Origin: Fidelibacterota bacterium
Lineage (GTDB): Bacteria; Fidelibacterota; UBA8477; JABMPR01
Assembly (NCBI GenBank): GCA_021734325.1
Contig: JAIPJF010000023.1
Span: 1 to 53,571 of the forward strand
Reading direction: 5' to 3'
Length of the DNA stretch: 53,571 nucleotides
Position 1 is the stretch's first letter. Every line of letters begins with the position of its first letter. The notes under the pieces were generated by a model. That model made no database searches. It saw only the letters and a program-made list of their open reading frames with translations, and was not told where the DNA came from. The position numbers were made by a program, and so were the translations under genes. Shown in pieces: positions 13,978 through 32,561 of the stretch.

Positions 13978-14066
13978 GATAAACCCTCCTTTTGATATTT
14001 GTTTTTTCACGTTTTTTTTATTTAGTGTTTCCTTGGTGGGCTGAACAAAGGCGATTCTTTGAATAC

Positions 14067-14552: not shown

Positions 14553-14593
14553 TGCAACCTCCTCGGTTATTGATTTAAAAATCTTAACATCTA

Positions 14594-16901: not shown

Positions 16902-16916
16902 TCAATTATGGTGCCA
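16902..16916 (-). promoter_or_regulatory. Sigma-54-type promoter of the DUF11/barrel operon
   Basis: On the minus strand it reads TGGCAC CATAA TTGA, the sigma-54 -24/-12 layout (TGGCAC-N5-TTGC) with A instead of C at the last position. Expected transcription start is near 16891, which gives a leader of about 120 bases to the TTG start. The split-repeat pair begins 111 bases upstream. Confidence 0.8.
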
Positions 16917-16992
16917 ACCTTCATTTATTGATCTATCATATTATATATATTATATTTAAAGCGTTAGTTGAATTTACAAAATGTTAACGTTT

Positions 16993-17027
16993 TGCATGTT
17001 TTACATGGGAATTTGCAAACATTGCAA
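16993..17027 (-). promoter_or_regulatory. Upstream activator site, two split repeats (DUF11 operon)
   Basis: Minus strand: TTGCA ATGT TTGCA (17027-17014) and ATGTA AAAC ATGCA (17006-16993), starts 21 bases apart. Each unit is NTGYA-N4-NTGCA with half-sites nine bases apart. The upstream copy starts 111 bases before the -24 box, as at the four other promoters. A Fis-type helix-turn-helix of an NtrC-class activator is the likely reader (inference). Confidence 0.72.
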
Positions 17028-17187
17028 AACGTTTATAAAACGCGTCAGAATAGCTGGTCTTTTCGTTTGCAGCCCAAAAAACAGGATCCAGGCCAGGGAG
17101 ATAATATAAGTAAAATTGACCCCTGATTGAGATGGCAAACATCACTCAACAGGTCGAGATCCTGCTTTCATATTTTCAATTTAAACT

Positions 17188-17223
17188 ATGCATATTTTAC
17201 ACTTAGGCCGTGTATTTATTGCA
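17188..17223 (+). promoter_or_regulatory. Upstream activator site, two split repeats (PilX-like operon)
   Basis: ATGCA TATT TTACA (17188-17201) and GTGTA TTTA TTGCA (17210-17223), starts 22 bases apart. The first begins 113 bases before the -24 box. One half-site (TTACA) departs from the consensus. Confidence 0.7.
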
Positions 17224-17300
17224 TTGTCAGTGAAATCACAGATCACTCGAAACAATCATAAATATATATATATCAATATTTTACAACTGTGCATTTTTTT

Positions 17301-17315
17301 CGGCATGAGACTTGA
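17301..17315 (+). promoter_or_regulatory. Sigma-54-type promoter of the PilX-like operon
   Basis: CGGCAT GAGAC TTGA keeps the two invariant G residues of the -24 box and the TTGA -12 form shared by all five promoters here. Expected start is near 17326. The leader then contains the very strong AGGAGG ribosome site just before the ATG at 17346. It is the least canonical of the five at -24. Confidence 0.72.
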
Positions 17316-17345
17316 CCTATTGGAACATGACAACAGGAGGTCACC

Positions 17346-18275
17346 ATGTTCGCAGCCGTCATCATGTTTTTCGTCATTTTTTCCTTTACCGGGGTCGCTG
17401 TTTTAGACATCTCAGCTAAATCAAGTCTTAGCTCCCTGGAAACAGTCAATAATATCAAACTGCAATACGAGGTAGAGTCTGCCATCAATGAAGCTCTGTG
17501 GCGCATCAATACCAGTACGGATTCATTGGTAAATTTTACTTCCGATGATCTCACCTGTAGCTGGAATCCAACGGACAATATTTTATCCGTGGAAGTTGAC
17601 ATGTATGGCGTGGAATCTGCGATCGAACTGGATCTGTCTGAGGATAATCATTTTAAACGGGGACTTGCCACAAATCAGCTGGTCAATCCCTACGGATATA
17701 CAAGCGGGATTGAAGATGAGCATCAAATGCGTCAGTTTGGATTTATGCCTCAGGTTGATGAACAATACTTCAGAGACAATGCCGTAAAAATTCACAATGC
17801 CAATGATCAGTCATGGAAAGAAGGTGAAGTTAGTCAGGAGGGCATCCATGTCTTTACCGGCAACAATATTGAGATAGACAGTCTTATTCTGAATAACTCA
17901 ACTCTCGTCTTCACCGGCAAGGGAATCACAATCACCGGGACAAACACGATTCGGGCAGGAATTCCAGCTGACGCTGTTGCGGCCCTTCCGGCTCTTGTGT
18001 TCACAGATCCTGAGGCCGTGGTCACGATTGTACGCGGGACCCACATTGAAGGTGCCATTTACTGTGCCGGACAGATCATACTTGAGAATGCCACTCTCAG
18101 TGGACCCATTGTGAGTCCATCTATCGCCCTGGCTGAAAATCTGGACCTCCTGGATGCTGAAAATGATGTCTATTACCGCTGGAACCTAGGATTTGGGGAT
18201 CAGAGTGACTATGACTGGCCCAAGCAGATCAACCGCTGGAAAGTCAATAAATGGATAAAGAATTCAGCAAGCTGA
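17346..18275 (+). CDS. PilX-like single-pass membrane protein
   Basis: 309 residues behind a near-perfect ribosome site (AGGAGG, six bases before ATG). Residues 2-22 form a hydrophobic helix followed by an amphipathic stretch with Ser, Leu and Glu and then YEVESAINEALWRIN. This is the layout of PilX-type pilus-assembly proteins (hydrophobic helix, then an alpha-helical spine with AE..A.EAL). No prepilin-peptidase motif (G/FTLIE) is present. The rest is beta-rich and ends with a Trp/Lys-rich tail. The tail is nearly identical to the fragment at 1..86, so at least two paralogues exist. It is transcribed from a sigma-54-type promoter, as pilin genes often are. Role as a minor pilin or an envelope scaffold is inference. 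The gene at 18292 follows after 16 bases. Confidence 0.7.
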   Translation: MFAAVIMFFVIFSFTGVAVLDISAKSSLSSLETVNNIKLQYEVESAINEALWRINTSTDSLVNFTSDDLTCSWNPTDNILSVEVDMYGVESAIELDLSEDNHFKRGLATNQLVNPYGYTSGIEDEHQMRQFGFMPQVDEQYFRDNAVKIHNANDQSWKEGEVSQEGIHVFTGNNIEIDSLILNNSTLVFTGKGITITGTNTIRAGIPADAVAALPALVFTDPEAVVTIVRGTHIEGAIYCAGQIILENATLSGPIVSPSIALAENLDLLDAENDVYYRWNLGFGDQSDYDWPKQINRWKVNKWIKNSAS

Positions 18276-18291
18276 GTTTCTGAGCCTGAGG

Positions 18292-18969
18292 ATGAACAAA
18301 ATGAAACCTGAGATGAAGCTTCGATTCGCGACTCACTTAAGCTTCACAATTGTCCTCATGTGCTCGATAGCTGTGACTACGCTCTCAGCAGAAGATGACG
18401 GGGCAGTTTATCGGACAGAGGTGATCACAGGTTCAAGTCTCGAAAATCGCACACCTTCAAGCCCCTCTACCGGATCGGTAAAGACCTTTATAACCGAGAC
18501 TGGTCTTGTTCCCTTAATGCCCATTTTGCTTGACGAGTTATCCAACCCAACCCTGCCGCAAAATCGGAAAAAAATAGCCATTAATGTCATCCAGACGAAT
18601 CAGGATCTCATGAGCGGGTACTTAATTGAGGCCAATAGTGAGTATCTTCTTTTCCAGGACAATATTGATACTGCTATTCATATCATTGATCGGGCTGAGC
18701 TTGAATTGCTTGAGGCGAATACAAATATTGATCTGCTTGCTTTTATAAAGAATCAAGATTCCTCAAAACTCACAGATGTCATAGAAATGATCGACGGTTC
18801 CAGGATCGAATGCATCATTCTGGATATGACCCAGGGAGCTGTCCAGTATTTCACAGGGGGTGGCCTCAGACGTCAGCAAGTATCCACAGACATTATATCC
18901 ATGCTTCATTTCAGCAACGGTGATGTGGACATACCCTTCCAGGATTTAGCTCTCAGCAGCCTGGACTGA
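18292..18969 (+). CDS. Secreted protein with two Sm-like beta repeats, function unknown
   Basis: 225 residues; not recognised as a named family. A signal peptide occupies about 1-33 (hydrophobic run from LSFTIVLMCSIAV to TLSAED). A Ser/Thr/Pro-rich linker follows (NRTPSSPSTGSV). Two similar segments come next: about 97-143 (SGYLIEANSEYLLFQDN, then a Leu/Glu-rich stretch) and about 162-212 (DGSRIECIILDMTQGAVQYF, then ISMLHF). Their pattern (introduce-a-change strand, charged turn, hydrophobic strand, I..I) resembles short Sm/LSm-like barrels, but this is a weak guess. An alternative ATG at 18301 is better placed after GAGG. It is co-transcribed with the PilX-like gene and probably acts with it in the periplasm. 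Confidence 0.65.
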   Translation: MNKMKPEMKLRFATHLSFTIVLMCSIAVTTLSAEDDGAVYRTEVITGSSLENRTPSSPSTGSVKTFITETGLVPLMPILLDELSNPTLPQNRKKIAINVIQTNQDLMSGYLIEANSEYLLFQDNIDTAIHIIDRAELELLEANTNIDLLAFIKNQDSSKLTDVIEMIDGSRIECIILDMTQGAVQYFTGGGLRRQQVSTDIISMLHFSNGDVDIPFQDLALSSLD

Positions 18970-19053
18970 TGCTCAGGAGCTATTGCTCCATCAGCACGTA
19001 ACCCTCTACACCTAAACTCCTCCCCAAGGCTCCCCATTAGCCCAGGCCCAACC

Positions 19054-19090
19054 ATGTATTATATGCATGATTTGGTATGTATTATATGCA
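19054..19090 (+). promoter_or_regulatory. Upstream activator site, two identical split repeats (19235 gene)
   Basis: ATGTA TTAT ATGCA occurs at 19054-19067 and again, unchanged, at 19077-19090, starts 23 bases apart. It is the clearest copy in the window. The first begins 113 bases before the -24 box. Confidence 0.78.
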
Positions 19091-19166
19091 TTTCCATGTT
19101 TAGTGATACTATCATGAATGTCTGTATACTCTTTATTATTAATAGTTTATCTGTGTGCATATTTCC

Positions 19167-19181
19167 TGGCACAGAGATTGA
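19167..19181 (+). promoter_or_regulatory. Sigma-54-type promoter of the YfiM-like gene
   Basis: TGGCAC AGAGA TTGA. Transcription would start near 19192. That is downstream of the longest in-frame ATG (19118) and only a few bases before the ATG at 19196, so the usable start is 19235. Confidence 0.8.
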
Positions 19182-19234
19182 AATATAAGGAGCAGATGCA
19201 GACTAAACTAAATAATGAAAAGGACCCATCTAAA

Positions 19235-19714
19235 ATGAAAACTGCAATTAAAAACATCGCCTCCTCCGCCCTGCTCTCAGCTTTTGGTCGCATGAGTACT
19301 TTCATGATTGTGGTCCTTTTGGTAATGCTTACCGCTACCACTTCTGTTAAAGCGCAGGGACTTGCCAAAGCCATCATGAGCCTGGATACAAAAATGACCG
19401 AAGCCATGCCGATCAATACTTTTGATAGATCGACAGCCTTTCATCTATATGGTGGAGTTGCCTATGGGAAGATCCGCAACAGTGAAACCTTTCAGAATTT
19501 AACCGGTATCAAACCAGCTTCTTCAGGACGCATGCTCGTTGAGACATTTATTTGGGCAGTTGCCTTTGAAGTCTTAGAGTATAAAACCGAAGCAAATTTC
19601 AGCGCCAAAAAATATGACGAGATCTATGGTTCAAGGGATACAGCAATTTCAAACAATGCTGCTGACATCCTCGCCGCTGCTCTCGGCTCAGTCTCTATCA
19701 GCTTTACTTTCTAG
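19235..19714 (+). CDS. Small exported YfiM/DUF2279-like protein
   Basis: 159 residues from the ATG at 19235 (AAAGGA upstream). This start is chosen because the sigma-54 promoter lies between 19167 and 19181 and because it opens a signal peptide (hydrophobic MSTFMIVVLLVMLTATT, cleavage near VKAQG). The mature part shows FDRSTAFHLYGG, then FIWAVAFEVLEYKTE, then NNAADILAAALGSV. This series (D.(S/K)..H/F..G, an E..E helix, then D...N..AD..A..G) resembles YfiM-type envelope proteins (DUF2279). The match is by eye only and the function of that family is poorly known. It ends with a FTF tail. In-frame upstream starts at 19118 and 19196 would include the promoter or leave a four-base leader. Confidence 0.68.
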   Translation: MKTAIKNIASSALLSAFGRMSTFMIVVLLVMLTATTSVKAQGLAKAIMSLDTKMTEAMPINTFDRSTAFHLYGGVAYGKIRNSETFQNLTGIKPASSGRMLVETFIWAVAFEVLEYKTEANFSAKKYDEIYGSRDTAISNNAADILAAALGSVSISFTF

Positions 19715-19785
19715 GGGATTGATCGGGCGAATGAGAGTCCCCTCGATCGAACGCGTATAATTGTCTCCCCGGACATAGCAACACA

Positions 19786-19819
19786 GAATCAGCCCCGATA
19801 TCGGGGCTGATTCTATTTT
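19786..19819 (+). terminator. Rho-independent terminator
   Basis: A perfect 28-base palindrome (arms GAATCAGCCCCGAT and its complement, 19786-19813) followed by TATTTT. It ends the 19235 gene. The 310-base convergent gap 19715-20024 holds only this and the hairpin at 19943; nothing else was seen. Confidence 0.75.
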
Positions 19820-19942
19820 AGGGCTTATTCAATTGTCCTGTATAGTTTTTAAAGCAGGATCTGTGATCAGAGCCAGGACATAGCCAAGCTGTCTATCCAC
19901 TGCTGCTTTTGAGTCCTCAAGGAGTTAGAAAAACAACAGAGA

Positions 19943-19960
19943 AGCCCCCTGAAGGGGGCT
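19943..19960 (-). terminator. Terminator hairpin of the kinase/NtrC operon
   Basis: A seven-base-pair stem (AGCCCCC with GGGGGCT, four-base loop). On the minus strand it is followed by a pyrimidine-rich stretch that ends in five T residues. It lies 65 bases after the stop of the NtrC-type regulator. Confidence 0.65.
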
Positions 19961-20024
19961 AGAACTGATCGAGATGTAAACCTGTATCTTTTTTGTCAAC
20001 TCAACCTAAAGTCGACGATTTGAC

Positions 20025-21374
20025 CTAATTCTGAATCTCATATTTTTCGAGTTTGTTATACAGGGATCTGAGACTGATACCAAGGGCTTTAGCCACATGA
20101 GTCTTATTCCCGCCCAGTTCCCGATACACCTTCATAATATAATCGCGTTCAACCTCCTCCAATGTCTGTCGCTCAGTGGCATCCGAACTTCCACCAATTT
20201 GAGAGGTGATATCCTGAATTTCAGGTGGAAGATGCTCAAGGCTTGGACTCTTATCACCGGCGATCAGAAAGACTCTTTCCAGAGTGTTCTGCAACTCTCG
20301 AATATTTCCGGGCCAGTTATAATTCTGCAGTGCATTTATAAAGTCATTTTCAACTTCATTCTTTGGATCATGACGACCTTTGCGAACACTGAAATAGTCA
20401 ACGAGTATTGGTATATCAGATTTACGTCTGCGCAAAGCGGGAACATCAATAATAAAGGGACTCAGCCGATAGAACAAATCCTCACGGAATCGTCCCTTAT
20501 CGACCTGAGTAAGAAGATTTCTGTGGGTTGAGGAAATCACCCTGAAGTCCGAACTTATCTCTTTCTGAGCGCCAAGTCTTCGGAATTGTTTGGATTCGAT
20601 AGCTCTTAAGATCTTTGGCTGAAGTTCCATTGACATTTCACCAATTTCATCCAGCAGGATGGTTCCCTTGTTCGCAACTTCAAAGAGTCCGTATTTACGG
20701 ACAACTGCCCCGGAAAAGGCTCCCCGTTCATGGCCAAATAGCTCACTTTCCAATAGATCGGATGGAATCGACGCGCAATTTATCGCTACAAAAGGTTGAT
20801 CCCTTCGGGGACCCTGATCATGTATGGATCGAGCGACAAGCTCTTTGCCAGTTCCAGTTTCTCCCGTAATCAGTACTGGAATATCAGATTTGGATACCTG
20901 CTTGATCTCTTTTTTTACCTTTTTAATTCCTACTGATTTTCCAATGATCTGTACAAACTTCGTCCGCAGCATCTGCTGCCTGAGCATATCATTATTAATC
21001 TTGAGTTCATGTCGATTATATATGCGCTTGACCATTGCCAGAAGTTCATCATTATTAATGGGCTTTTGGAGATATTCGGCAGCACCTGATTTTATCGCCT
21101 CTACCACATTATCTATGGTGGAAAATCCTGTAAACAGAACCACACTTGTATCTGGATTGTATTGTTTAATTTCCTTGAGCATATCCAGACCGGTCATCTT
21201 CGGCATCATGATATCCGACAGAACCAGGGCATATTCATGCTCCTTAAAAAGAGCCAAACCCTCTTCCCCATTCGTGGCGGTTTCAACATCATATCCCTCT
21301 GCTCCCAGAAGCGCTCGCAACCCTTCGCGAATCGTTTTTTCATCATCGACGATTAGTATTGAAAATGTAATCAT
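20025..21374 (-). CDS. Sigma-54-dependent response regulator, NtrC class, intact
   Basis: 449 residues from the ATG at 21374; a GTG four codons upstream is possible, but the paralogue at 30886 aligns to the ATG. The receiver spans residues 1-120, with phospho-acceptor D54 (VLSDIMMP) and lysine in LQKP. The AAA+ domain spans about 140-370, with Walker A GETGTGKE (171-178), the sigma-54-contacting loop GAFSGA (218-223), Walker B LLDEI (241-245) and FREDLFYRL arginine fingers. A Fis-type helix-turn-helix lies at the C-terminus (KTHVAKALGISLRSLYNKL). It activates sigma-54 promoters when phosphorylated. It is the last gene after two hybrid kinases and lies close to five sigma-54-type promoters. 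It is the best candidate to bind their split repeats (inference). Confidence 0.95.
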   Translation of the reverse strand: MITFSILIVDDEKTIREGLRALLGAEGYDVETATNGEEGLALFKEHEYALVLSDIMMPKMTGLDMLKEIKQYNPDTSVVLFTGFSTIDNVVEAIKSGAAEYLQKPINNDELLAMVKRIYNRHELKINNDMLRQQMLRTKFVQIIGKSVGIKKVKKEIKQVSKSDIPVLITGETGTGKELVARSIHDQGPRRDQPFVAINCASIPSDLLESELFGHERGAFSGAVVRKYGLFEVANKGTILLDEIGEMSMELQPKILRAIESKQFRRLGAQKEISSDFRVISSTHRNLLTQVDKGRFREDLFYRLSPFIIDVPALRRRKSDIPILVDYFSVRKGRHDPKNEVENDFINALQNYNWPGNIRELQNTLERVFLIAGDKSPSLEHLPPEIQDITSQIGGSSDATERQTLEEVERDYIMKVYRELGGNKTHVAKALGISLRSLYNKLEKYEIQN

Positions 21375-21393
21375 GACCTGTACCACCTATCTT

Positions 21394-24300
21394 TTATTTG
21401 TTCTCCCCTGATTTCCCTTCATCAAACAAGGAGGCCACTGCCTGTATCAGAATTTCCTGCGACCAGGGCTTCTGAAGATACCTATCAATTCCCTGCTTTT
21501 TAAAATCTTCCAGCACATCTGCTTCAACAACCCCACTCGTTAATAAAACGCATACCGTTTTTGAGAGTTTACGGACTTCCTTCACAAGCTGTAAGCCTGT
21601 CATCCTGGGCATGGTCAGATCCGTTATAATGAGGTCATAGCTATGAATATCTTTCTGGAACATCTCTAATGCTGCTCGGCCATCATTCGCGACATCAACG
21701 GTATTTCCCAGGTTTTCCAGGATCAACTTCCCTGCTCCAGATATCATTTTGTCGTCATCAGCATAGAGAATTCTTAATCCACTAATCGATTTCTGATCCT
21801 CAGTATTTTCTTTGGAGTCAGTTGCAGCTATATCCTCCACGGGCATAAATATTCTTACACTGGTCCCTTTACCAGGCTCACTCTCAATGTCAATCTTACC
21901 CCCCATATCGTGGATAATTCCATGAACAATGGAGAGGCCCAAACCCGTACCTTCGTTCACATCCTTTGTGCTGAAGAATGGATCAAATATCTTCTCCAGG
22001 GTCTCAGCATCCATACCTCGACCAGTATCACTCACCAGTAATTCTACATATTTATTCCCTGCTGCCAGGGAGTCTATGGGTCCAATACTGCCGTTAACCT
22101 CCCTTTCATGGAGTTCTACCTTCAGCATACCGCCTGTCTCATGCATGGCATAGGTGGCATTGTTGCACAGGTGGACAAAAAGCTGATGAACCTGGGAAGC
22201 GTCGCACTTGACATACCCACACTGTGTATCAATGTGATCCACGATGTCAATTATGCTGGGAGTTGAAGCCCGGATAAGTTTGATGGCGTCCTTAATCAAA
22301 TATTGGATCTGGATTGGTTTGCGTTCAACAGCTTCCTGACGGCTGAAGGTAAGGATCTGTCTAACCAATTCCTTGGCACGATCTCCAGCCTCAATAATCT
22401 GTTGAAAATGCGATCGCAGCTCTCCTTCTTCCGGCAGTTGATTTTTTATGATGCCGGCATAGAGAAAGAAGCCCTGTAGTATATTGTTAAAATCATGGGC
22501 GATCCCTCCAGCCATCGTCCCTATGGCCTCAAGCTTTTGGGATTGTCGAAGTCGTTTCTCAAGGTCGGCCCGCTCATCTTCAGCCCGCTTCATTTCCGTG
22601 ATATCACGGGTGGACACAACAAGACCCAATAATTTTTGGTCACTATCAAAATGAGCATTATAGCTGGTGTCCACAAAACGTTTCCCATATGCCGGATAAT
22701 TGACCCAGGTTTGGTAATGGACACTCTCTCCTGCCAGACACCTGTCAATATTCGCTTTGATGACCGATTCAAAAAATGATTTCCCAAAAACATCGCCTAT
22801 CGATTTACCTATAATATCTTCCACCGTCGTATTGACAGCCTTCACGTAGGCAGTATTGGCTGCCAGGTAGGTATAATTGTGATCAATAAACGCCAGCATA
22901 TCCGAGGTGCTGGAAACAATATATTTATATTGATTAAGTGCTATTTCGGCCTGTTTCCGGTCGTTGATATCACGGTTATTGCTGCGTCTCCCTATAAAAT
23001 TGCCCTGAGCATCGAAAACGGGGCTGCAATTGTGTTCCAACCATCGTGTTGTCCCGTCTTTGTGACGTATCGGGAATTCTTTTGTAAAAAAAGGGTACTC
23101 TCCATGTTTCTCATCCTCCCAATTCAAATGCTCAAACATACTCTCCCGGTAATCTTCACGGATCATTTTTAGGAATAGCGTCGGATCACTGGTGATCTCG
23201 TCAATGCTGTAGCCTGTAATGTTTTCACATGCAGGGGACATATACACATATTCACCATCCGGTTTTCTCAAATACTCCCAGTCATGGGTATAATCAGCGA
23301 ATAATCGGAATCTGGCTTCACTCTCCTTTATTTTTTGCAGATTGAGTGTATGCTCCGTGACGTCCTGTATCGAGCCTCGCATCCAAATCGGTTTACCATC
23401 TTGAATTTCCGGGTCAGCGAGTTCTTCATGCATGTAACGAATTTCCCCACCTGGGAGAATGATGCGGTAATCGGTTCTCTTAGAAAGATGAGACTTGACT
23501 TCCTGTTTAAAAAGCTCAACGTCATCTGGATGAATTCTGTCTGTCATATGCTCAAGCTTTACCTGCGAACCAGGATCGATCTGAAACATGCGATATAGTT
23601 CTTCAGACCAATAACTACTGTCAGAGATGGGATCATACTCCCAGGTCCCAACATGGGCCAATTTTTGGGATAGATTCAGACGGAATTGATTTCTGCGAAG
23701 ATCCACTTGTTCCTGTTTCAATTTTTCAAAGGTTATGGCCCTCAAAAAAGCACCACCGATCAGGTTGGCAAATATCTGGAGCTGAGCCAGACTCTCCTCT
23801 GTATATTTATGGAAGGTGTAACTTTGAGCGGTAACCTCGCCTACTTTGGTGTCACCCCATACGATTGGGACAAACAGCAGGGAAGCACTTTTTCTATCAA
23901 CGGCTCCGAAGGGACGGTCCATAGGTGTTTTTAAAAATTTTTCAGGGGTTCGATTAATGAGCTTCGGATTTTGAGAACCGGCTATACTGTCTGAATCCAA
24001 TATGTCAAAGGCTGAGGAAAGTGGTTCAAATTCCTGCGGTTCTTCGTTTCCCAGGGCTGTATCTTCTGAATAGATACCCCTGTTTATCCTGGCTTTGTGA
24101 TCGATGTAGTTTATGGCTATGGCATCGCTTTCAAAGAAACTTCTGATCGATTGTGCTGCTACCTTCCCTATGGATGTCATATCCATGAGCGTGGTTAATT
24201 TTTCCGTGAGTTCAGACGTGGCTTTTTGTAGTCGCTCGGCCTGCTTAGTCTTGGTGATATCTCTCCATATGGCATGGAGGTAATCCCCATCTCCCTCTGT

Positions 24301-24612
24301 GCTGATGGCTGTCAACAGTACTTCTACCGGAAATACTTCTCCATTTGCCCGTATATGTTGCCATTCAAATCGATGGTTCCCTATCTGTCGTGCTTTGAGC
24401 ATCATCAGATCAGCCTGTTTATGGGAGTCAGATCCATCTGCCTGCAACGGGGGAGAAAGTTCTGCCGGATGAGAATCCAAAATTTCCGACTTAGTTTTAT
24501 AACCGAGCATTCGAACTGCAGCATCGTTACAATCGATGACCCTGCTGTTCTTAATAATCAGAGAAGCATCAGCTGACTCTTTGAATAATTCAGTATATTT
24601 TGTCGGAGTCAA
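21394..24612 (-). CDS. Cytoplasmic hybrid histidine kinase: PAS, GAF, three PAS, HisKA, HATPase, receiver
   Basis: 1072 residues without membrane segments. Visible are a PAS domain at about 5-120, a GAF domain at about 130-290, PAS domains at about 315-420, 430-550 and 560-672, and the phosphoacceptor box GGIAHDFNN (H706). The ATPase domain has NLCNNA-like HLCNNATYAM, DTGRGM and GTGLGLS. A receiver occupies about 950-1072 with D998 (IITDLTMP) and the QKPW lysine. The start is TTG at 24612 (ATG is not available in frame), with GAGG eight bases before it. It overlaps a short frame at 24609..24680 that may couple its translation. It stands between the LytS-type kinase and the NtrC regulator, which starts 19 bases after its stop. 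Phosphotransfer to that regulator is likely but would need an intermediate such as an Hpt step; none is seen here. Confidence 0.92.
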   Translation of the reverse strand: MTPTKYTELFKESADASLIIKNSRVIDCNDAAVRMLGYKTKSEILDSHPAELSPPLQADGSDSHKQADLMMLKARQIGNHRFEWQHIRANGEVFPVEVLLTAISTEGDGDYLHAIWRDITKTKQAERLQKATSELTEKLTTLMDMTSIGKVAAQSIRSFFESDAIAINYIDHKARINRGIYSEDTALGNEEPQEFEPLSSAFDILDSDSIAGSQNPKLINRTPEKFLKTPMDRPFGAVDRKSASLLFVPIVWGDTKVGEVTAQSYTFHKYTEESLAQLQIFANLIGGAFLRAITFEKLKQEQVDLRRNQFRLNLSQKLAHVGTWEYDPISDSSYWSEELYRMFQIDPGSQVKLEHMTDRIHPDDVELFKQEVKSHLSKRTDYRIILPGGEIRYMHEELADPEIQDGKPIWMRGSIQDVTEHTLNLQKIKESEARFRLFADYTHDWEYLRKPDGEYVYMSPACENITGYSIDEITSDPTLFLKMIREDYRESMFEHLNWEDEKHGEYPFFTKEFPIRHKDGTTRWLEHNCSPVFDAQGNFIGRRSNNRDINDRKQAEIALNQYKYIVSSTSDMLAFIDHNYTYLAANTAYVKAVNTTVEDIIGKSIGDVFGKSFFESVIKANIDRCLAGESVHYQTWVNYPAYGKRFVDTSYNAHFDSDQKLLGLVVSTRDITEMKRAEDERADLEKRLRQSQKLEAIGTMAGGIAHDFNNILQGFFLYAGIIKNQLPEEGELRSHFQQIIEAGDRAKELVRQILTFSRQEAVERKPIQIQYLIKDAIKLIRASTPSIIDIVDHIDTQCGYVKCDASQVHQLFVHLCNNATYAMHETGGMLKVELHEREVNGSIGPIDSLAAGNKYVELLVSDTGRGMDAETLEKIFDPFFSTKDVNEGTGLGLSIVHGIIHDMGGKIDIESEPGKGTSVRIFMPVEDIAATDSKENTEDQKSISGLRILYADDDKMISGAGKLILENLGNTVDVANDGRAALEMFQKDIHSYDLIITDLTMPRMTGLQLVKEVRKLSKTVCVLLTSGVVEADVLEDFKKQGIDRYLQKPWSQEILIQAVASLFDEGKSGENK

Positions 24613-24680
24613 TTCAAGGCCCTCGTGATCTTGTTTATTGGGAAGAATATTTTGATATCAGGCTTAATTATTTCATTCAT
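24609..24680 (-). CDS. Possible 23-residue leader peptide before the TTG-started kinase
   Basis: The ATG at 24680 follows AGGTGAG at good spacing, immediately after the stop of the LytS-type kinase. The frame of 23 residues (MNEIIKPDIKIFFPIN, then a basic end) stops with a TGA that overlaps the TTG start of the next kinase (TTGA). This would couple translation. It could equally be the original N-terminus of the kinase separated by a one-base frameshift. No similarity was recognised. Confidence 0.35.
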   Translation of the reverse strand: MNEIIKPDIKIFFPINKITRALN

Positions 24681-24692
24681 AATCATCTCACC

Positions 24693-27600
24693 TTAATCTG
24701 AAAAGACTGCGTCAATTGCCTTCAGCATCTCATCTGCAGTCCAGGGTTTTCTGATAAATCCGTTGACCCCATAGGTCTCGAATTCTGACTGTAATGCTTG
24801 GTCCAGATTTCCACTTGTCAGAACGATGGGGACATTCTTTGAGTACCCCCGGATCTCTTTTGTCAGTGCCAAACCGGTCATTCTTGGCATGGTCAGATCC
24901 GTAACGATCAGGTTATATCCATCAGGATCTTTAAGAAACATTTCAACGGCCACCTGACCATCCCTGGCAAGATCTACGGAGTAACCTTTATTTTCGAGAA
25001 TGAATTTTCCTGCACTGGCGATCATCTGATCATCTTCGACAAAGAGAATTCTCATCCCTTCCGGGATCGTAATTGAATGCTCCTGGACAACTTCCGGGAC
25101 GATCTCGTCCTCAGTCAGGGGCAATAGAATTCTGAATGTGCTTCCTTTTGTGAGCTCACTTTCTACTAAGATTTGTCCCTTCATCTCCTTGATGATCCCG
25201 TGGACAATGGACAAACCAAGGCCGGTCCCTTCGTTGGTATCCTTGGTGGTAAAGAATGGATCGAATATTTTCTCCATAACCTCATCTGCCATCCCATGCC
25301 CCGTATCACTCACGCATAGCTCAGCAACGCCACTTGCCTCTGAATTAATTGCTCCTGGTTCAACCTCAATTTTAGCATCAACTTCTTTATAGCTGACTGT
25401 GAGCGTCCCCCCGGTCTCTCTCATTGCGTGAATGGCATTGTTACAAAGATTGATGAAAATCTGATGGATCTGTGTTGAATCGCAAAGAATGGGCCCGCAG
25501 TTGCTGTCAATATTGTCCCTGATCTCAATCGTGGATGGTGTGGATGCCCGGGTCAGTTTCAGTGCATTCTTGATCAGGAATTGAATTTTGGTTGGCTTGA
25601 GTACGGCCTCCTCTCTGCGACTAAAGGTGAGGATCTGCTTAACCAGATCTCTCGCCCGATCACCAGCATCTATGATATGCTGGAAATTTGATCTCATTCT
25701 CTCATTGTCAGGCAGTTCCTTTTTGATGATTCCTGCGTAGAGATACAGCCCTTGCAAGATATTATTGAAATCATGGGCAATGCCTCCCGCCATGGTGCCT
25801 ACGGCTTCCAGTTTCTGGGATTGGCGCAATTGGGCTTCCAATTCCAACTGTTTTTCTTCCTGTATTCTTTGATCAGTTATATCTGAAATTATCGCCAAAA
25901 AAGTCAGCTTTCCCATATAGCTGCTCATCTGCAGACTTACACTGACTGGATACAAGGAATTATCTTTACGGCGATGGATCGTCTCAAAGTGTAGATTGTC
26001 AATCTCTCCTGCCATCAAAGGTTTAAGCAGCTGCCTGAATGAAGTCTCATCATGGAGTGGCTTGATATCGAGTGGAGTCAACTCCTTTATCTCTTCGAGA
26101 GAATATCCAATGTTTTCTTTCGCCCCCTTGTTGATAAATACGAACTGCAGCGTTTCTGCATCGAATAGATAGATTTCATTCAGGGAGTCCTCAATAATGC
26201 GGCCCAGGTCATGAGACATTTCTTCTGAGGCTTCCCTGCTCCGTATCTCACGCTTCAGAATATCATGAGTGCGGGCATTATTTATGGCAGCGCTTACATA
26301 AATAGCTATTGTTGAAGCATAGTTCAACTCATCGTTTGTAAAGGGGTCACTGCGACGCAAGAGTGAGATGACTCCGATGACTTTATTCTGAGCCACCAGG
26401 GGAACGATGAGCAGATTGTCATCATCTTCAACGGGTGTGCCCGGGATATGATAAGCGCCTGGTTGCTGAGAAGCCTGATTAAAGATCATCCCTTTGTTTG
26501 CTTTGACAACCTGTCCACTCAGAGAGTGATCTACTTTTACCCGGGTTTCCATGATCTTCTTACTGTGCTCCGGCTCCAAGGAAACCGCCGGGATAAGCAA
26601 ATCGCCTGGGTCATCCAAAAAATAGACAGTGACTCCTTCACATTTGAGGAGGGATTGGATCTCGTGGCCAACTTTCTCAAGGACTACGTCGATATCAAGT
26701 GATGACGCCAAACCATAGGCTGTTTGTAATAATTGCTCTTGTCGCTCTGAGTAGCGCTGTAACTCTCTTTCAGCTTTAATACGCTCACTAATGTCCCGGA
26801 TGATTGCAAAGGTGGCAGGCTTTCCCATGTAATCAATAATTTCATATTTGACATCTACCTGAATGTGAAGACCATCTTTCCTGACAAAGGTCGCTTCATA
26901 ACTTCCTGAGCGGCTCTCAGTTTTGTGCCTTTCCTTCGCTCTTTCTTCAAGTTCAAGCAACCCCTCTTTGGTGAAAATCTTTTTGAAGGATATTTTTTTT
27001 ATTTCATCCACTGAATAACCAAGCATTTCGGCAAAGCGATTGTTGGAGTAAAATATTTTATCATCCTGTGATATCTCAATGCCATCATTGGCATTTTCAA
27101 CAATCATACGGTATTGTTCTTCGCTCTGGCGGAGCAGCTTTTCTGCATATAAGCGTTCTGAAATATCCCGTGTATATCCCTGGATAATCTGTGGCTCTTT
27201 TTTGTGGTCATAGATAATAGTGGCTTGTATTTCAACATCGAATTCCGTTTTGTCTTTACGCAGATTTTTAGATTGGAACTTGATTCCAGGATGGGGTGCT
27301 CCTATTTCAAGTTCTGATAAGAGGAGAGACTGGATTCTTTCAAATTCGGCAGAAGTGAATAATTCCGCTGCATTTAGCTTCATGATCTCTTCCGGAGTGT
27401 ATCCAAGTATTCTCTGCGCTGAATCACTGGCATAGGTCATATTGAAATCCATATCGATCGTCCAGATGAAATCGGTGGCATTTTTAGTGATGATCTGAAA
27501 GATGACCTCATTCTTTTTGAGTGCTTCTTCAGCAATTTTGCGCTCCGTGATGTTCTCTTTGACTGCCATATACTGAATGGTTTCACCGGCCTCATCGAGA

Positions 27601-28850
27601 ATCGGGGATATTCTGGCAGCTTCCCAATAGGTTTCCCCATTTTTCTTTTTATTCCTGAATTCGCCTGACCAGGTTTTCCCTGCACCAATGGTTTCCCATA
27701 GATCCCTGTAGAATTCCTTCCCCTGTTCCCCTGATTTTAAAATTCTGGGGTTCTTGCCTAACACCTCCTCAGCAGTGTACCCGGTGAGCTCTTCAAACTT
27801 TGGATTAACATACTCAATATTGCCTTTAGTATCTGTCACGACTATGGAAGCTGGACTTTGATTGACAGCCTGGGAAAGTGTGATGAGTTCCTGGTCTTTG
27901 ATCCTGTTCAGGGTAATATCGACAAGTGTTATCCTGATACATATCTCACCTTCTTCAACCACATGGGCTTGATTGACTTCAAACCAGGTCGGTTGTTTAG
28001 ATTTAGAAATGGTTTTTATCGTAAAGGGACCCAGCGTCCCCTGTAGGACCTTATCAAACTTGTCCACATGCTGCCCCAATAAACTGATCTCGGAAAAGTG
28101 CTTACCGATCAGATCTTTTCTAGGCATTCCGAAAATGTTCTTTGCATGATTAAGATCAATTATGATCCCGTCCAGTCCGAGAAGAACAATGGTTTCCGGC
28201 GCTTGTTCAAAAAGCCCGCGGTATTTGTTCTCACTGGATGCAATTTTTCTTTCGGCAGCAATGCGTTCATTCCGACTCAGCAGAAAAAGACCCAATACCA
28301 GCGTACTGACCGGATAAATCAGCATTACCGGCAGGCTGATTTGGGTAATCACATGGTAGGCTTCAGGTTTTGGTAATATCAGCATCCATAATATCATGAC
28401 CACATGGACCAAGACTCCAAAGCCAAACAGCTCCATTGCAGTGATATTTGTTAAATTTCTGTATTGTCGGTTTCTTAACTTGAGTTGTCGAATTACAACA
28501 CCGATCAGGGCTGATGAACCAATCACTCCCAGGCCCATATACATACCAATCCCACCCTGATAGATGCGCAATGTTGCTGTCATAATAACAGATATTAAAG
28601 CTGGGATTGTCCCAAAGAAAAGCGCGCCAATACTTAATACGACAGATCGTGTATCAAATATAAGTCCAGGCTTGTATTCCCAGGGAGTCAACATCACTAA
28701 CACCCCGATGAGACCAATGACTATGCCTGAGAGGCTTCTGTATAAGTTATTCTCCACCCAATATTTGAAGATCATCACATCATACACGAGACCCATGGCG
28801 AAAAGCAGGACAGCATTATTGATCAATCCAACAATCAGATTGTTATCCAT
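24693..28850 (-). CDS. LytS-type membrane hybrid histidine kinase with multiple PAS, GAF and receiver
   Basis: 1385 residues behind GAAGGA. Residues 1-125 form five helices of the 5TM-LYT type, with the diagnostic [20 protein letters not shown] segment. A further membrane region reaches about 190. PAS domains lie at about 205-312, 320-438, 445-565 and 575-692, a GAF domain at about 705-862 and another PAS at about 870-995. The kinase core has GGIAHDFNN (H1026), NLCNNA, DTGHGM and GTGLGLS. The receiver has D1318 (IVTDLTMP) and RKPW. It opens the three-gene signalling operon that ends in the NtrC regulator. Signals could be small ligands or redox/oxygen through PAS/GAF. No cofactor ligand was identified by eye. 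Confidence 0.92.
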
Positions 28851-29226
28851 GCTGCGAATCCTTCCCGTTTTGAAACCCGAAAGTATTGATAAGTGATTCT
28901 AGTGCAAAAGGTCGTCGTCTTCATTTCCAGGCAGTTCTTCCGGCAGTACCAGATATTTGATGAAGTCTTCTGTTGTAGATTTGTCTTTGCTGAATATAAG
29001 AATAATTCAATCAAATGGAGGAAGAAAGGCAGGAAGAGCTGATGAATATTCATTCATCAGCTCCTGAACTAAATACATCGTTGGGACAGACCCCAAATGT
29101 GTTTCTTGAAGTTATTATCGTGTCTCCCCTGAGTTCACCTTACAGCTTAATTGATCTCCTCCATCACCACACACCGGGAAGGCAAAACTTGCCCTGAGTG
29201 ATCAGTAGTCCCGGTAATCCCTATTC
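28851..29226 (-). other. Intergenic region, no gene seen
   Basis: A 376-base gap between two minus-strand genes. It contains a perfect hairpin at 29036-29063 (listed) and the ribosome site of the LytS-type kinase. No sigma-54-type element or split repeat was found upstream of that kinase. Confidence 0.6.
29036..29063 (-). terminator. Hairpin, probable terminator of the 29227 gene
   Basis: A perfect 12-base-pair stem (GAGCTGATGAAT with its complement, four-base loop). On the minus strand a pyrimidine-rich stretch follows, but without a long T-run, so termination efficiency is uncertain. It lies 160 bases after the stop of 29227..30321. Confidence 0.5.
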
Positions 29227-30321
29227 CTATTCAAGATACATCATCTTAACCGTTTGTGAATTTGGTCCTGCTTGAATTCTTGCTATATAGATGCCGCTAG
29301 GAATGGCTTTGCCCCCTGACTCGAGTGGTTCCCACACAACTGAATACCAGCCCGCTTCCATTTGTCTCTGGATGAGTTGGATAATTTCATTTCCACGAAG
29401 ATCATATATCTTAAAACTTACATAAGCATCATTAAGTATTTGAAAATTCAGGGTTGTACTAGGGTTGAATGGATTGGGATAGGCATCCATCAAAACAAGA
29501 TCAGAAGGTTTCAGATCCTGGTTGTATTGTCTTACAGTCACACTGATCTCATCATGATAGGTGATCGTACTGTTATAATCCACATCGGCTAATCGGTAAC
29601 TGTAGAGTTCTCCAACATTCACATGAATATCAGTGAAGGTATACAGAGACCGTTCAGTGCTTGAACCCTGTCCCAGTAATTCAGGATCAGTGATAAAACT
29701 GGCGATCTCTTCCCACGCGAAGGCTGGGGTGTTCGAAGCCCGCTCGATAATGAAGCCCTGATTCTCGATCTCAGATTCGGTGATCCATTCCAGATCAACC
29801 TTTCCATCACTTGAACTGGCTGTCCAACTACCGAGCTCGACTGGAAGTGAGCTATCCGTTGATGAGGTAAATAAGCCGTCATAGGTCGCGTTGGACTTGC
29901 ATGAATAGGCTCGGTAATAATAAGTTGTGTTTGGCATGGTTGGCGTATGATCTACGAATCCGGCTCCGTCCCAATAAACAAAATAGACGCCATTTGTTGC
30001 ATCGATCATAGTATTTTGAGCAGTTCCGGCGTAATCCCCACTGGGTGTGAAAGTCCCAAAAAGACCATTCAGAGTGTAAACAATGAGAGCAGAACTATAG
30101 GGGCGAGCAGCGTTGGTCCAGGCCAGTGACATGCTTGTCCCTGAAGCATTACTCGTTGCTGTAAAGCCGGTCGGTTGCCCATAAGCGTGATGAACCAGGC
30201 TTGACACAATGAAAAACAACACTAGCAATTTCATGAGCCAGCGATGTTGAGAAGAAGCTAATAGACTTCTCGGAATCTCATGCCTTTCTGTCAGATACTG
30301 TTGGTTCACGATTGGTTTCAC
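29227..30321 (-). CDS. Secreted protein with FN3-like region and type IX-like sorting domain
   Basis: 364 residues from a GTG at 30321, chosen because GGGGAGG lies five bases upstream. The internal ATG at 30234 has no ribosome site. The signal peptide is the hydrophobic run LLVLFFIVSSLVHHAYG. The mature protein has a fibronectin-III-like beta region. Its middle (LPVELGSWTA, then W.TESEIENQGFIIERAS) is the common linker domain of secreted FCB proteins. The C-terminal about 85 residues are the sorting domain: MDAYPNPFNPSTTLNF, KIYDLRG and SGIYIAR, ending KMMYLE. Such domains direct secretion and attachment through a type IX-like system. Its promoter is one of the five sigma-54-type sites (30361-30375). 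The ligand or function is unknown. Confidence 0.82.
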   Translation of the reverse strand: MKPIVNQQYLTERHEIPRSLLASSQHRWLMKLLVLFFIVSSLVHHAYGQPTGFTATSNASGTSMSLAWTNAARPYSSALIVYTLNGLFGTFTPSGDYAGTAQNTMIDATNGVYFVYWDGAGFVDHTPTMPNTTYYYRAYSCKSNATYDGLFTSSTDSSLPVELGSWTASSSDGKVDLEWITESEIENQGFIIERASNTPAFAWEEIASFITDPELLGQGSSTERSLYTFTDIHVNVGELYSYRLADVDYNSTITYHDEISVTVRQYNQDLKPSDLVLMDAYPNPFNPSTTLNFQILNDAYVSFKIYDLRGNEIIQLIQRQMEAGWYSVVWEPLESGGKAIPSGIYIARIQAGPNSQTVKMMYLE

Positions 30322-30360
30322 CTGACCCTCCCCGGTCTTGCCCGTTTGGCTAGTTATAGT

Positions 30361-30375
30361 TCAAAGTATATGCCA
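30361..30375 (-). promoter_or_regulatory. Sigma-54-type promoter of the 29227 gene
   Basis: On the minus strand: TGGCAT ATACT TTGA. Expected start is near 30350, leaving a short leader that contains the GGGGAGG ribosome site before the GTG at 30321. Confidence 0.78.
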
Positions 30376-30450
30376 GTGAGAATCGCATTTTGTAAGTCAT
30401 TATTATTTATGCTGATAGGTGACTATATGGTTTTCCATAAACTCACCATA

Positions 30451-30487
30451 TTGCACATTCTGCATATTCAAACTGCAGTATTTGCAT
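30451..30487 (-). promoter_or_regulatory. Upstream activator site, two split repeats (29227 gene)
   Basis: Minus strand: ATGCA AATA CTGCA (30487-30474) and ATGCA GAAT GTGCA (30465-30452), starts 22 bases apart. The upstream one begins 112 bases before the -24 box. Confidence 0.74.
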
Positions 30488-30561
30488 AATACTGATTGAA
30501 TCAAGGAGGGATGCTCAAGTTCACTTTTTGTGATGCTTGAAATTTGAAATATGACGCCAGC

Positions 30562-30578
30562 ATTGATTAATAATCAAT
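30562..30578. promoter_or_regulatory. 17-base perfect palindrome, candidate operator
   Basis: ATTGATTA-A-TAATCAAT is a perfect inverted repeat with a one-base centre in the divergent gap. It is AT-only apart from one G-C pair per arm, so chance is a real alternative. No regulator is known for it. Confidence 0.35.
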
Positions 30579-30885
30579 ACAATTGAGTGATAGACCGCCT
30601 GATATTTTCCTGATAATTCTCTGCTTTCTGCGCTTGGTAAGGATATTGCTCTTCAAATTAATAGCGCGGCTTACATGATCTTAGGTCTGGAGGGTTGTGA
30701 GCGCATTTAATTTGGGGGTGGCTGGCTTTACCCCCTATGGGAAGAAAGTGTGCAAACATGCCTGAGAAAGTTTTACATTATCTGACTCAATAGACAGGTT
30801 ATATATTGTCGAGATCAGAAACTATAATTATAATAATTCTAAAATTAATAAATATTTGGCAGTAGCGTTGGAAGAGGAGTAAAAC

Positions 30886-32259
30886 ATGGCAGCATTTTCA
30901 GTTCTTATTGTAGATGATGAGAAAGTGATCCGTTCTGGTTTGAAGGCTCTGTTAGGATCTGTTGGGTACCAGGTAGATACAGCTCAAGACGGACTCGAAG
31001 CGTTAATGCTATACAAAGATAATCACTACACTCTGGTATTATCCGATATCAATATGCCGAATCTGACGGGAATTGAGATGACGAAGCAGCTAAAATTGAT
31101 GGATCCTGACGCGACGGTGGTCCTGTTTACCGGTTATTCATCCATAGAGAGCGCCCTGGAAGCGATGAAAAGCGGAGCCGAGGAATACCTTCTCAAGCCC
31201 ATCAATAACGATGAAGTCCTCAACATGGTTTCCCGGGTCTATGAGCGCTGGGATCTTAGACGTAAGAATGATATGTTGCGTCAGGAAATATTAAGAGCAG
31301 AATCCCTGGAAATTATTGGGAGTTCGGCTCCTATCAATAAAGTCAAATCAGGGATCACTCAAGCAGCTGACTCCATGCACCCCATTCTCATAAGCGGAGC
31401 TGCAGGAACAGGAAAGCGTATCATTGCCCGCGCAATTCATAATCAGGGTCCCCGTAAGGATGAGGCTTTTGTCGTATTAGATTGTGCGAGCACAGCTGTT
31501 GATCAGCTGGAAGCCGCATTATTTGGATATGAAGCCGAGACATTTCCAGAAACCCCAGGACGAAAATATGGATTACTCGAGGTTGCCCATGGCGGCACCT
31601 TGTACATAGATGAGATTTCCATGATGACCATGGATCTGCAATCCAAACTTCTGATTGCGATTGAGACGAGCCAATTATTCCGACTCGGTTCAAAACAAGC
31701 AGTCAACTTTAATTCTCGCATTATTGCAAGCACAAAGTTGAATCTTTTGCGTCTGGTCGAGGAGGGGAATTTCCGCGAAGACCTCTATTATAAATTAAAT
31801 AGCATACCCATTGACCTGCCTGCCTTAAAGGATAGAAAAGATGATATTCCCTTACTTGTCGATTATTTCAGCAAGAAAAATGGTCGCAAGGAGTCTGTTG
31901 GAGATCTCGAAGCAGACTTTATGGAGGCACTACAAAGATACGACTGGCCAGGGAATCAACGCGAACTGCAACATGTTCTGGAAAGAGTCTTCATGCTGGT
32001 TGGGAATGAACCTCCTTCTCTGGAATTTCTTCCTCCAGAGATCAGTGACGTTGATCATCAATTCAGCGGAGGGTACCGAGGCGATATCAAGCGCGCAACA
32101 CTGGCTGAAAATGAACGTGAGTATATGTTAAAGACCTTTCGCGAGTTGGGAGGGAATATGACTCATGTGGCGAAAGCTCTCGGACTCAACCTGAAGTCCC
32201 TCTACGATCATTTCGAAAAAGCGGGCTTAGGCTATCTCTATCAACGGGGTGATAAATAA
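30886..32259 (+). CDS. NtrC-class regulator paralogue with destroyed GAFTGA loop
   Basis: 457 residues, ATG behind GAGGAG. It is collinear without gaps with the intact regulator at 20025..21374 over the first 250 residues. The receiver keeps D54 (VLSDINMP) and LLKP. Walker A is GAAGTGKR (171-178), changed from GETGTGKE. The sigma-54-contacting loop GAFSGA (218-223) is replaced by ETFPET. Walker B IDEIS is kept, and FREDLYYKL replaces FREDLFYRL. The Fis-type helix-turn-helix is well preserved (MTHVAKALGLNLKSLYDHF). In known activators the GAFTGA loop is required to remodel sigma-54 RNA polymerase. This protein should bind DNA but not activate in the usual way. I infer a competitor, co-regulator or phosphate sink for the intact paralogue. 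Confidence 0.9.
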   Translation: MAAFSVLIVDDEKVIRSGLKALLGSVGYQVDTAQDGLEALMLYKDNHYTLVLSDINMPNLTGIEMTKQLKLMDPDATVVLFTGYSSIESALEAMKSGAEEYLLKPINNDEVLNMVSRVYERWDLRRKNDMLRQEILRAESLEIIGSSAPINKVKSGITQAADSMHPILISGAAGTGKRIIARAIHNQGPRKDEAFVVLDCASTAVDQLEAALFGYEAETFPETPGRKYGLLEVAHGGTLYIDEISMMTMDLQSKLLIAIETSQLFRLGSKQAVNFNSRIIASTKLNLLRLVEEGNFREDLYYKLNSIPIDLPALKDRKDDIPLLVDYFSKKNGRKESVGDLEADFMEALQRYDWPGNQRELQHVLERVFMLVGNEPPSLEFLPPEISDVDHQFSGGYRGDIKRATLAENEREYMLKTFRELGGNMTHVAKALGLNLKSLYDHFEKAGLGYLYQRGDK

Positions 32260-32434
32260 TTTTTACAGTAAACCGACAGTATTTTTGTATACACGGTTCA
32301 ATTCGGCATCCCGGTGGGAGTAAACAACTCACGACGGCAGATTCCGATGGATACCAAGTAGCCTGAAAAGAGCTTTTAATCTTTCCGAGTGCTTAAACCT
32401 TCCCTCTCCAAGCGTAGCATAATTACAGCCAACT

Positions 32435-32471
32435 ATGTATTTAATGCAATTTTATTCATGCATTTATTGCA
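32435..32471 (+). promoter_or_regulatory. Upstream activator site, two split repeats (32593 gene)
   Basis: ATGTA TTTA ATGCA (32435-32448) and ATGCA TTTA TTGCA (32458-32471), starts 23 bases apart. The first begins 112 bases before the -24 box. Confidence 0.77.
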
Positions 32472-32546
32472 TTTCTTTTTGTTTTCTTATTTACTGATCA
32501 AATCCCATCTTCTTTATATACAAATACTTACAAATTTTTCTCCACG

Positions 32547-32561
32547 TGGCACGAACTTTGA
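32547..32561 (+). promoter_or_regulatory. Sigma-54-type promoter of the stand-alone receiver gene
   Basis: TGGCAC GAACT TTGA. Start is expected near 32573, 20 bases before the ATG at 32593. Apart from this and its repeat pair, the 333-base gap 32260-32592 shows nothing I can support. Confidence 0.8.

Follow-up and report, generated by a model that had tools for sequence, protein, structure and literature searches.

Two-component regulons of the NtrC, ZraR and PilR type, in which regulators of the NtrC family act on sigma-54 promoters, are the closest described systems to the one analysed here. It lies on a contig of a Fidelibacterota bacterium (JAIPJF010000023.1 of assembly GCA_021734325.1, positions 1 to 53,571 of the forward strand), whose 53,571 nucleotides are called the window in the following; the genome holding it, G000, comprises 2.93 Mb and is 84% complete. 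Judging from the sequence, we consider it quite probable that five sigma-54-type promoters of the window are switched on together by the NtrC-type regulator encoded at 20025-21386, through a shared -24/-12 box, a pair of 13-bp dyads and an AT-rich element. The local sigma-54 regulon is real and is itself new; its kind is already known, since the reconstruction of regulons of enhancer-binding proteins (EBPs) by comparative genomics is established (PMC6615313, PMC4641369; statements on papers with PMC numbers refer, here and below, to excerpts of their texts). Earlier work on sigma-54 or RpoN in Marinimicrobia was not found in the full-text literature, with some spellings of sigma and most subscription journals lying outside the search, and the main text of a 2025 survey of sigma-54 regulons (PMC12316311, in excerpt) does not mention the group.

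The initial annotation had listed five elements of the form TGGCAY-N5-TTGA, and all five are found at their positions, four as exact matches in the window and the fifth, at 17301, as CGGCAT-N5-TTGA. The -12 part is TTGA, not TTGC, throughout. Boxes (located by sequence match) and paired dyads are as follows.

16902-16916, minus strand: -24/-12 box TGGCACCATAATTGA, promoter of the DUF11 operon
16993-17026, minus strand: paired dyads TGCAATGTTTGCA (17014-17026) and TGTAAAACATGCA (16993-17005)
17301-17315, plus strand: -24/-12 box CGGCATGAGACTTGA
17189-17223, plus strand: paired dyads TGCATATTTTACA (17189-17201, imperfect) and TGTATTTATTGCA (17211-17223)
19167-19181, plus strand: -24/-12 box TGGCACAGAGATTGA
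19055-19090, plus strand: paired dyads, two identical TGTATTATATGCA units
30361-30375, minus strand: -24/-12 box TGGCATATACTTTGA
30452-30486, minus strand: paired dyads TGCAAATACTGCA (30474-30486) and TGCAGAATGTGCA (30452-30464)
32547-32561, plus strand: -24/-12 box TGGCACGAACTTTGA
32436-32471, plus strand: paired dyads TGTATTTAATGCA (32436-32448) and TGCATTTATTGCA (32459-32471)

With the T of TGYA and the first base of the -24 box as reference points, the distal dyads start 110, 112, 112, 111 and 111 bp upstream and the proximal dyads 89, 90, 89, 89 and 88 bp, at a spacing of 21-23 bp. The distances of 111-113 bp given earlier denote the same sites, counted from one base before. The fixed geometry and the spacing of the pairs hold as described, with the restriction that NTGYA-N4-NTGCA is fitted by nine of the ten units; the distal unit at 17301 reads ATGCA-N4-TTACA. 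Counted from where the -24 box begins, the first plausible gene start lies 29-54 bp downstream at four of the boxes and 145 bp downstream at 16902. The boxes at 19167 and 32547, together with the dyads 32436-32471, fall within upstream extensions of the open frames of their own targets. The downstream starts are likely the real ones and were chosen because of the ribosome site, the signal peptide and the point where similarity to relatives begins. RpoN itself is encoded in G000 (PF04552, 193.5 bits, on contig C32).

The rarity of this arrangement was assessed with a strict pair, defined as two TGYA-N5-TGCA units with a gap of 6-12, and with the reversed pattern as control. In the whole of G000 the strict pair occurs at four places (five matches, one place being read on both strands), all of them in the window, and the reversed pattern has no match. 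By chance, 0.04 pairs per genome would be expected analytically. Simulation with order-2 models, 25 random genomes for each, gave a mean of 0 when the model was built on the window and of 0.28 (maximum 2) when it was built on five intergenic stretches. These figures bear out the earlier opinion that chance is an unlikely source. The genome scan proposed at that time places all four strict pairs before likely gene starts, so that an occurrence within genes as often as upstream of them, named beforehand as a refutation, is not what G000 contains. Because the strict pair is confined to this cluster, as far as the 84% complete genome extends, the regulon is predicted to be local and not genome-wide.

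G000 holds 39 exact sigma-54-type boxes, and none of the 35 outside the window has a strict pair. Dyad-pair scores at the expected places amount to 7-15 for these 35 versus 14-18 for the five of the window, and the outside box that scores 15 sits in a coding frame. For a broader comparison, promoters of the window and of related modules (see below) were combined into test sets of 20 module promoters for the dyad table and 19 for the tandem-dyad and third-element tests, the difference being a weak promoter with a poor -24 box (G017 L078 8343). The best tandem dyad falls into the expected interval at 13 of the 19, at one of 15 non-coding other boxes (L122) and at none of 20 coding ones, where a box counts as coding if an open frame spans at least 300 of the 465 bases over it. 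A dyad geometry shared by all sigma-54 promoters of the organism is unsupported by these counts. In the dyad test, 13 of the 20 module promoters beat all 202 slid controls. The L122 box (L122/L146, G000:C28:12504-12518, plus strand) stands before an exported-looking protein of 122 aa and is accompanied by a different palindrome pair in the same geometry, with dyad centres at 105 (distal) and 84 (proximal).

When the 75 bp upstream of the -24 box were compared among the 19 promoters in a Gibbs search, a 20-base AT-rich motif emerged, which in 17 of them is located 41-43 bp before the box. It constitutes a third element in the window.

16939-16958, minus strand: AT-rich third element, 42 bp before the -24 box
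17259-17278, plus strand: AT-rich third element
19125-19144, plus strand: AT-rich third element
30398-30417, minus strand: AT-rich third element
32506-32525, plus strand: AT-rich third element

The score of 239.5 compares with 199.0 for 25 shuffles (maximum 211.4), and motif widths of 12, 14 and 16 also beat their shuffles, with 16, 10 and 13 of the 19 sites within five bases. The motif, which was trained on the module promoters themselves, lets 16 of the 19 outscore the best of 35 other boxes, 20 of these being coding. Integration host factor (IHF) was considered as ligand and is not supported: its consensus, which we take to be WATCAANNNNTTR, is not enriched between sites and promoter over the 20 promoters (145 versus 142.0 +/- 2.6 in shuffles, 17% of which score as high), and one full match occurs, at the 17301 promoter. 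For this reason we claim an AT-rich positioned element only; its ligand is possibly the alpha subunit of RNA polymerase or another bending protein.

Candidate regulators are encoded within the same cluster.

20025-21386, minus strand: NtrC-type response regulator, predicted activator, with receiver, AAA+ domain (PF00158), GAFSGA and Fis-type helix-turn-helix (HTH)
21394-24612, minus strand: multi-PAS hybrid histidine kinase, predicted partner, directly upstream of the activator gene
30886-32259, plus strand: paralogue of the activator without GAFTGA, predicted non-activating, with ETFPET at the loop position

In 20025-21386 the GAFTGA loop reads GAFSGA and was counted as present, this variant being among those expected to retain activity (PMC4641369). 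Relatives with at least 47% identity to 20025-21386 (the next best has 43%) define its subfamily, which was sought in 19 genus genomes, in G019 as a member of the same family and in 12 further genomes of the phylum. Seven of the 19 carry it (G000, G002, G010, G014, G015, G016 and G017), and none of the 13 outside the genus does. The ten subfamily proteins form one clade with support 100/100 in a tree of 18 proteins, from which five named background loci are absent as no frame was returned for them (L013, L044, L046, L047, L049). All aligned subfamily activators from the modules of G002, G010, G015, G016 and G017 have GAFSGA. We infer from neighbourhood and co-occurrence that 20025-21386 binds the dyads and is the likely activator of the five promoters. 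A single NtrC-class activator behind a sigma-54 regulon, as initially suggested, remains the best reading, given the presence of rpoN, the GAFSGA activator and the joint occurrence of subfamily and promoter in the genus.

The mechanism we propose would begin with phosphorylation of the regulator 20025-21386 by the hybrid kinase 21394-24612. Both dyads, which lie 110-112 and 88-90 bp upstream of the -24 box and some two helical turns from each other, would then be occupied by the regulator. The stretch from dyads to box would bend, with the AT-rich element (some 42 to 22 bp upstream of that box) as a possible site of the bend, and the AAA+ ring would touch sigma-54 RNA polymerase such that the promoter opens. 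The products would be DUF11 proteins, a pilin-like protein, an orphan exported protein, a protein sorted by the type IX secretion system (T9SS) and a stand-alone receiver. Since a receiver recurs as target in relatives, a feedback on the phosphorelay is suggested. Two more multi-PAS hybrid kinases are encoded near the regulon, at 423-3791 and 24693-28850, one with a sensor region of seven and one of five transmembrane segments.

An exact scan for the composite of dyads and box over one genome per species (84,980 species, possibly without the window's own record) returned three contigs, one of KSB1 and two of Neomarinimicrobiota, the latter (G014:C165 and G011:C156) both from the genus of the window. 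The search in related genomes that had been recommended finds relatives of two window targets behind the promoter: in G014, a divergent promoter pair stands before the genes of a receiver 67% identical to 32593-33057 and of a protein that has 43% identity with the T9SS-sorted 29227-30321. A loose scan for TGCA-type composites in the 19 genus genomes gave 14 hits in six genomes and none for the reversed control. Two of the 14 (L097 and L099) lie within coding frames and were dropped as chance. Five of the six genomes encode a subfamily activator, the exception being G011. A weight matrix trained on the five window sites alone scores 46.7 in G014 (L076, 949+), 45.7 and 35.6 in G017 (L078, 7128- and 10507-), 37.5 in G015 (L080, 8599-) and 31.1 in G016 (L082, 5554-), with nothing of at least 14 in six random windows of an order-2 model. 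A hit of 14.8 on the viral contig L036 lies within an open frame of 460 codons and was taken as chance, and a narrower-pattern viral scan found no composite. Pairs without a good box in G008 (L029) and G019 (L027) fall within coding frames and were likewise discarded.

The promoter beside the activator precedes a receiver in both modules of G010 (in one, just the start of the receiver gene is present on the contig), in G016, in G002 and in one of the two modules of G015, while in G017 a promoter with TTGT as -12 part precedes the kinase-activator operon itself. Altogether, receivers follow such promoters in G002, G010, G014, G015, G016 and G017, and the stand-alone receiver is the target type met most often in relatives. 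Three assignments are less sure, as a short frame or a long gap intervenes: a methyl-accepting chemotaxis protein in G015 whose start is at 153 bp, an Hpt-domain protein in G016 with its start at 228 bp and, in G011, a large protein with a listed start about 570 bp off and a sorting domain below the Pfam cut-off. No clear gene, and none like 19235-19714, follows the matching promoter at 949+ in G014 L076. In G010, two more stand-alone receivers (L140 on C104 and L141 on C287) are preceded by sigma-54-like boxes at a distance of 72-81 bp from the matched start. They have TGTGTAAAWTAATTCCTAC in common, a possible enhancer of another type; their upstream sequences are unlike those of the modules, and these receivers were left uncounted.

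Several observations weigh against regulation by 20025-21386 as set out above. The dyads could be the sites of some other activator. In G011 (91% complete) a composite promoter occurs without a subfamily activator (best 43%). The KSB1 genome (G060) contains a single composite; of its 26 related activators none belongs to the subfamily (42% at best over full length), and the activator beside the promoter (L035) is of the GAF type. The matrix finds nothing of at least 14 in L081, L083 and L087 and gives just 14.5-20.1 to L085 (G008, 20.1, in a coding frame), L079 (G010, 19.4) and L086 (G010, 14.5). Seven of the 20 module promoters, including two of the window five, fail to beat all slid controls. 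The score of the third element is inflated by shared descent, because some of the compared promoters are orthologous. Finally, the start of the 16902 target is uncertain and far, the first usable one (TTG) lying 145 bp after the -24 box.

Some of these points favour another NtrC-family protein, in the genome or in its unassembled part, as activator, with the cluster's own regulator acting elsewhere. Seven other strong NtrC-family proteins are present in the incomplete genome (nine PF00158 proteins reach at least 169 bits), and the promoters of G011 and KSB1 occur without the subfamily. We nevertheless regard this explanation as rather unlikely, since the pair is confined to the cluster and the subfamily co-occurs with the promoter in the genus. 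The KSB1 locus was rejected as an orthologous system on account of its GAF-type neighbour, the missing subfamily activator and the single composite in that genome. As none of the 26 matches belongs to the subfamily, the same dyads may serve a different activator in KSB1. Within KSB1 L035 (118-960), the TGCA-dyad composite is followed by a T9SS sorting-domain protein over the cut-off, which starts 57 bp after the -24 box.

Slightly less credit is given to the paralogue 30886-32259 as the activator that matters, alone or mixed with 20025-21386. It is situated between two of the promoters, has 55% identity to 20025-21386 with a similar HTH, and groups with a second copy in G014 (support 100/99 in the same tree), from which it follows that the duplication likely predates the split of the two species. 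Its GAFTGA position, on the other hand, is occupied by ETFPET, and by GAFPGA in the G014 copy, and 30886-32259 is judged probably not to be a functional activator. A change of the threonine to proline inactivated NifA of B. japonicum (PMC4641369). In addition, the modules of G002, G010, G015, G016 and G017 keep the layout with GAFSGA activators, no search with the paralogue itself having been made. With the sigma-54 contact loop lost, 30886-32259 is likely non-activating; it may compete for the dyads as an antagonist or act elsewhere.

The relatives further indicate how the proposed circuit of 20025-21386 could have diverged. G002 and G010, which carry the subfamily without a TGCA-type composite, have other palindrome pairs at the same positions: AGCATAATTTGCC/GGCATATTTTGCC at 113/89 and GGCATAATATGCC/GGCATAATTTGCC at 112/88 in G010, and GGTAAGCGCTACA/GGTAATTCTTACC at 113/90 in G002. 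To these come AGAAAATATTGCT/AGAAATAATTTCT at 113/90 in G015 and TGTAATAATTACA/GGTAAGTATTGCA at 112/89 in G016. Across the modules the half-sites are TGCA, GGCA, GGTA and AGAA, and a strict GGCA pair occurs in G010 only, among the 19 genomes. Each of the five half-site-changed promoters (two in G010, one each in G002, G015 and G016) beats all 202 slid controls. Detection relied on the box alone for the G002 module and the changed G015 module, and the matrix had been the first to point to the remaining three, weakly so in G010. Activator and dyads may co-evolve. We tentatively extend this to a picture in which a rigid four-part promoter is inherited as a frame while activator and dyads change together across the genus, insulating duplicated modules, and in which the loop-less copy is a built-in antagonist in the window species and one relative; this is conceivable and no more probable than that.

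The same data bear on the explanation that the five promoters are recent duplicates of one, spread by rearrangement, and alike from descent more than from selection. Paralogues, the two NtrC-like genes for instance, do exist in this local cluster, but the spacer sequences between the elements differ among the five, judged by eye, and in the diverged modules half-sites change while positions stay; we hold this explanation to be very unlikely. Last, the five could be fortuitous combinations of frequent sigma-54-like boxes with AT-rich words, for which one could adduce that the box with one mismatch allowed occurs 24 times in the window versus 11 expected. As a full account this is refuted by the confined strict pair, the simulations, the matrix controls and the promoters of relatives, and its probability is close to nil.

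The predicted targets of the activator 20025-21386 in the window are exported or surface proteins and one receiver.

14594-16771, minus strand: DUF11 protein, opening a run of genes on the same strand; its start codon is uncertain, the first usable one being TTG
14067-14597, 12235-14070, 7032-12200 and 3940-7026, minus strand: rest of the DUF11 run, putatively one operon
17346-18275, plus strand: pilin-like protein, 309 aa, ATG 45 bp after the -24 box, with AGGAGGT
18292-18969, plus strand: second gene of the 17346 operon, 225 aa
19235-19714, plus strand: exported-looking orphan protein, 159 aa, start set by the signal-peptide-like beginning (first start ATG 19196)
29227-30321, minus strand: protein with T9SS type A sorting domain (TIGR04183), 364 aa
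32593-33057, plus strand: stand-alone receiver, 154 aa, ATG 46 bp after the -24 box

The structural model of 17346-18275 consists of a long helix at the N-terminus (2-56) and a strand-rich, solenoid-like remainder, with a mean predicted local distance difference test (pLDDT) value of 77. There is no Pfam or NCBIfam match and no Foldseek match at E <= 0.001, the ComZ competence pilin appearing at E 0.43 only. Its family counts 222 matches; among the 120 listed, the named ones are Candidatus Marinimicrobia, FCB group or "bacterium". In G014, a relative of 17346-18275 is followed by a 52% relative of 18292-18969. A paralogue (53%; L123/L151, 6934-7815, minus strand) starts about 80 bp after another sigma-54-type box of the genome, G000:C28:67882-67896 (minus strand), the upstream palindromes of which differ by eye (GTCATA type); a further pilin-like paralogue fragment lies directly upstream of it. 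The pilin-like family may therefore be under sigma-54 at two loci with different activators. The gene 19235-19714, called YfiM-like in the initial annotation, has no match beyond itself among 5.8 billion proteins. For 29227-30321, TIGR04183 scores 38.9 bits (cut-off 23) and PF18962 26.2, just below its cut-off of 27, and the protein was classed as T9SS cargo.

By this analysis, a gene cluster whose members had otherwise gone unnamed gains a predicted regulator, sites and targets, and this in a phylum without cultured members. The related modules provide a natural series with constant enhancer position and changing recognition sequence, on which one could test how paralogous sigma-54 circuits evolve insulation from each other. 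Whether activators of the NtrC type can turn antagonist could be examined on the loop-less paralogue.

The system agrees with the NtrC, ZraR and PilR type in its activator of receiver, AAA+ domain and Fis-type HTH, the adjoining kinase and the inverted repeats about 100 bp upstream of -24/-12. It differs in its predicted surface targets plus receiver and in an AT-rich third element at a fixed place, and no named regulator is tied to it. The EBP regulons of Clostridiales (PMC6615313) likewise have a Fis-type HTH and group-specific upstream activating sequence motifs, often as multiple sites, with motif similarity tracking the similarity of the DNA-binding domains; their sites are described as mostly 100-250 bp upstream, whereas here the dyads deviate by no more than a few bases from set positions, and the half-site varies within a single activator clade. 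In Desulfovibrio vulgaris, too, two EBP genes, DVU2956 and DVU2960, are tied to one sigma-54 promoter, one of them with GAFPGA (PMC4641369). This protein, DVU2960, did not bind its neighbour's site in the gel shift reported, whereas the loop-less protein of the window is paralogous to the activator and resembles it in its HTH. NtrC proteins without GAFTGA are also known from Caulobacter and Rhodobacter, where the loop-less protein still regulates transcription, at sigma-70 promoters (PMC10274813); here, a full activator and a loop-less paralogue would share one cluster. The predicted exterior or exported targets are, lastly, in good agreement with sigma-54 as a controller of the bacterial exterior (PMC3162934), a link which that work draws as a general trend across genomes and not for one regulon.

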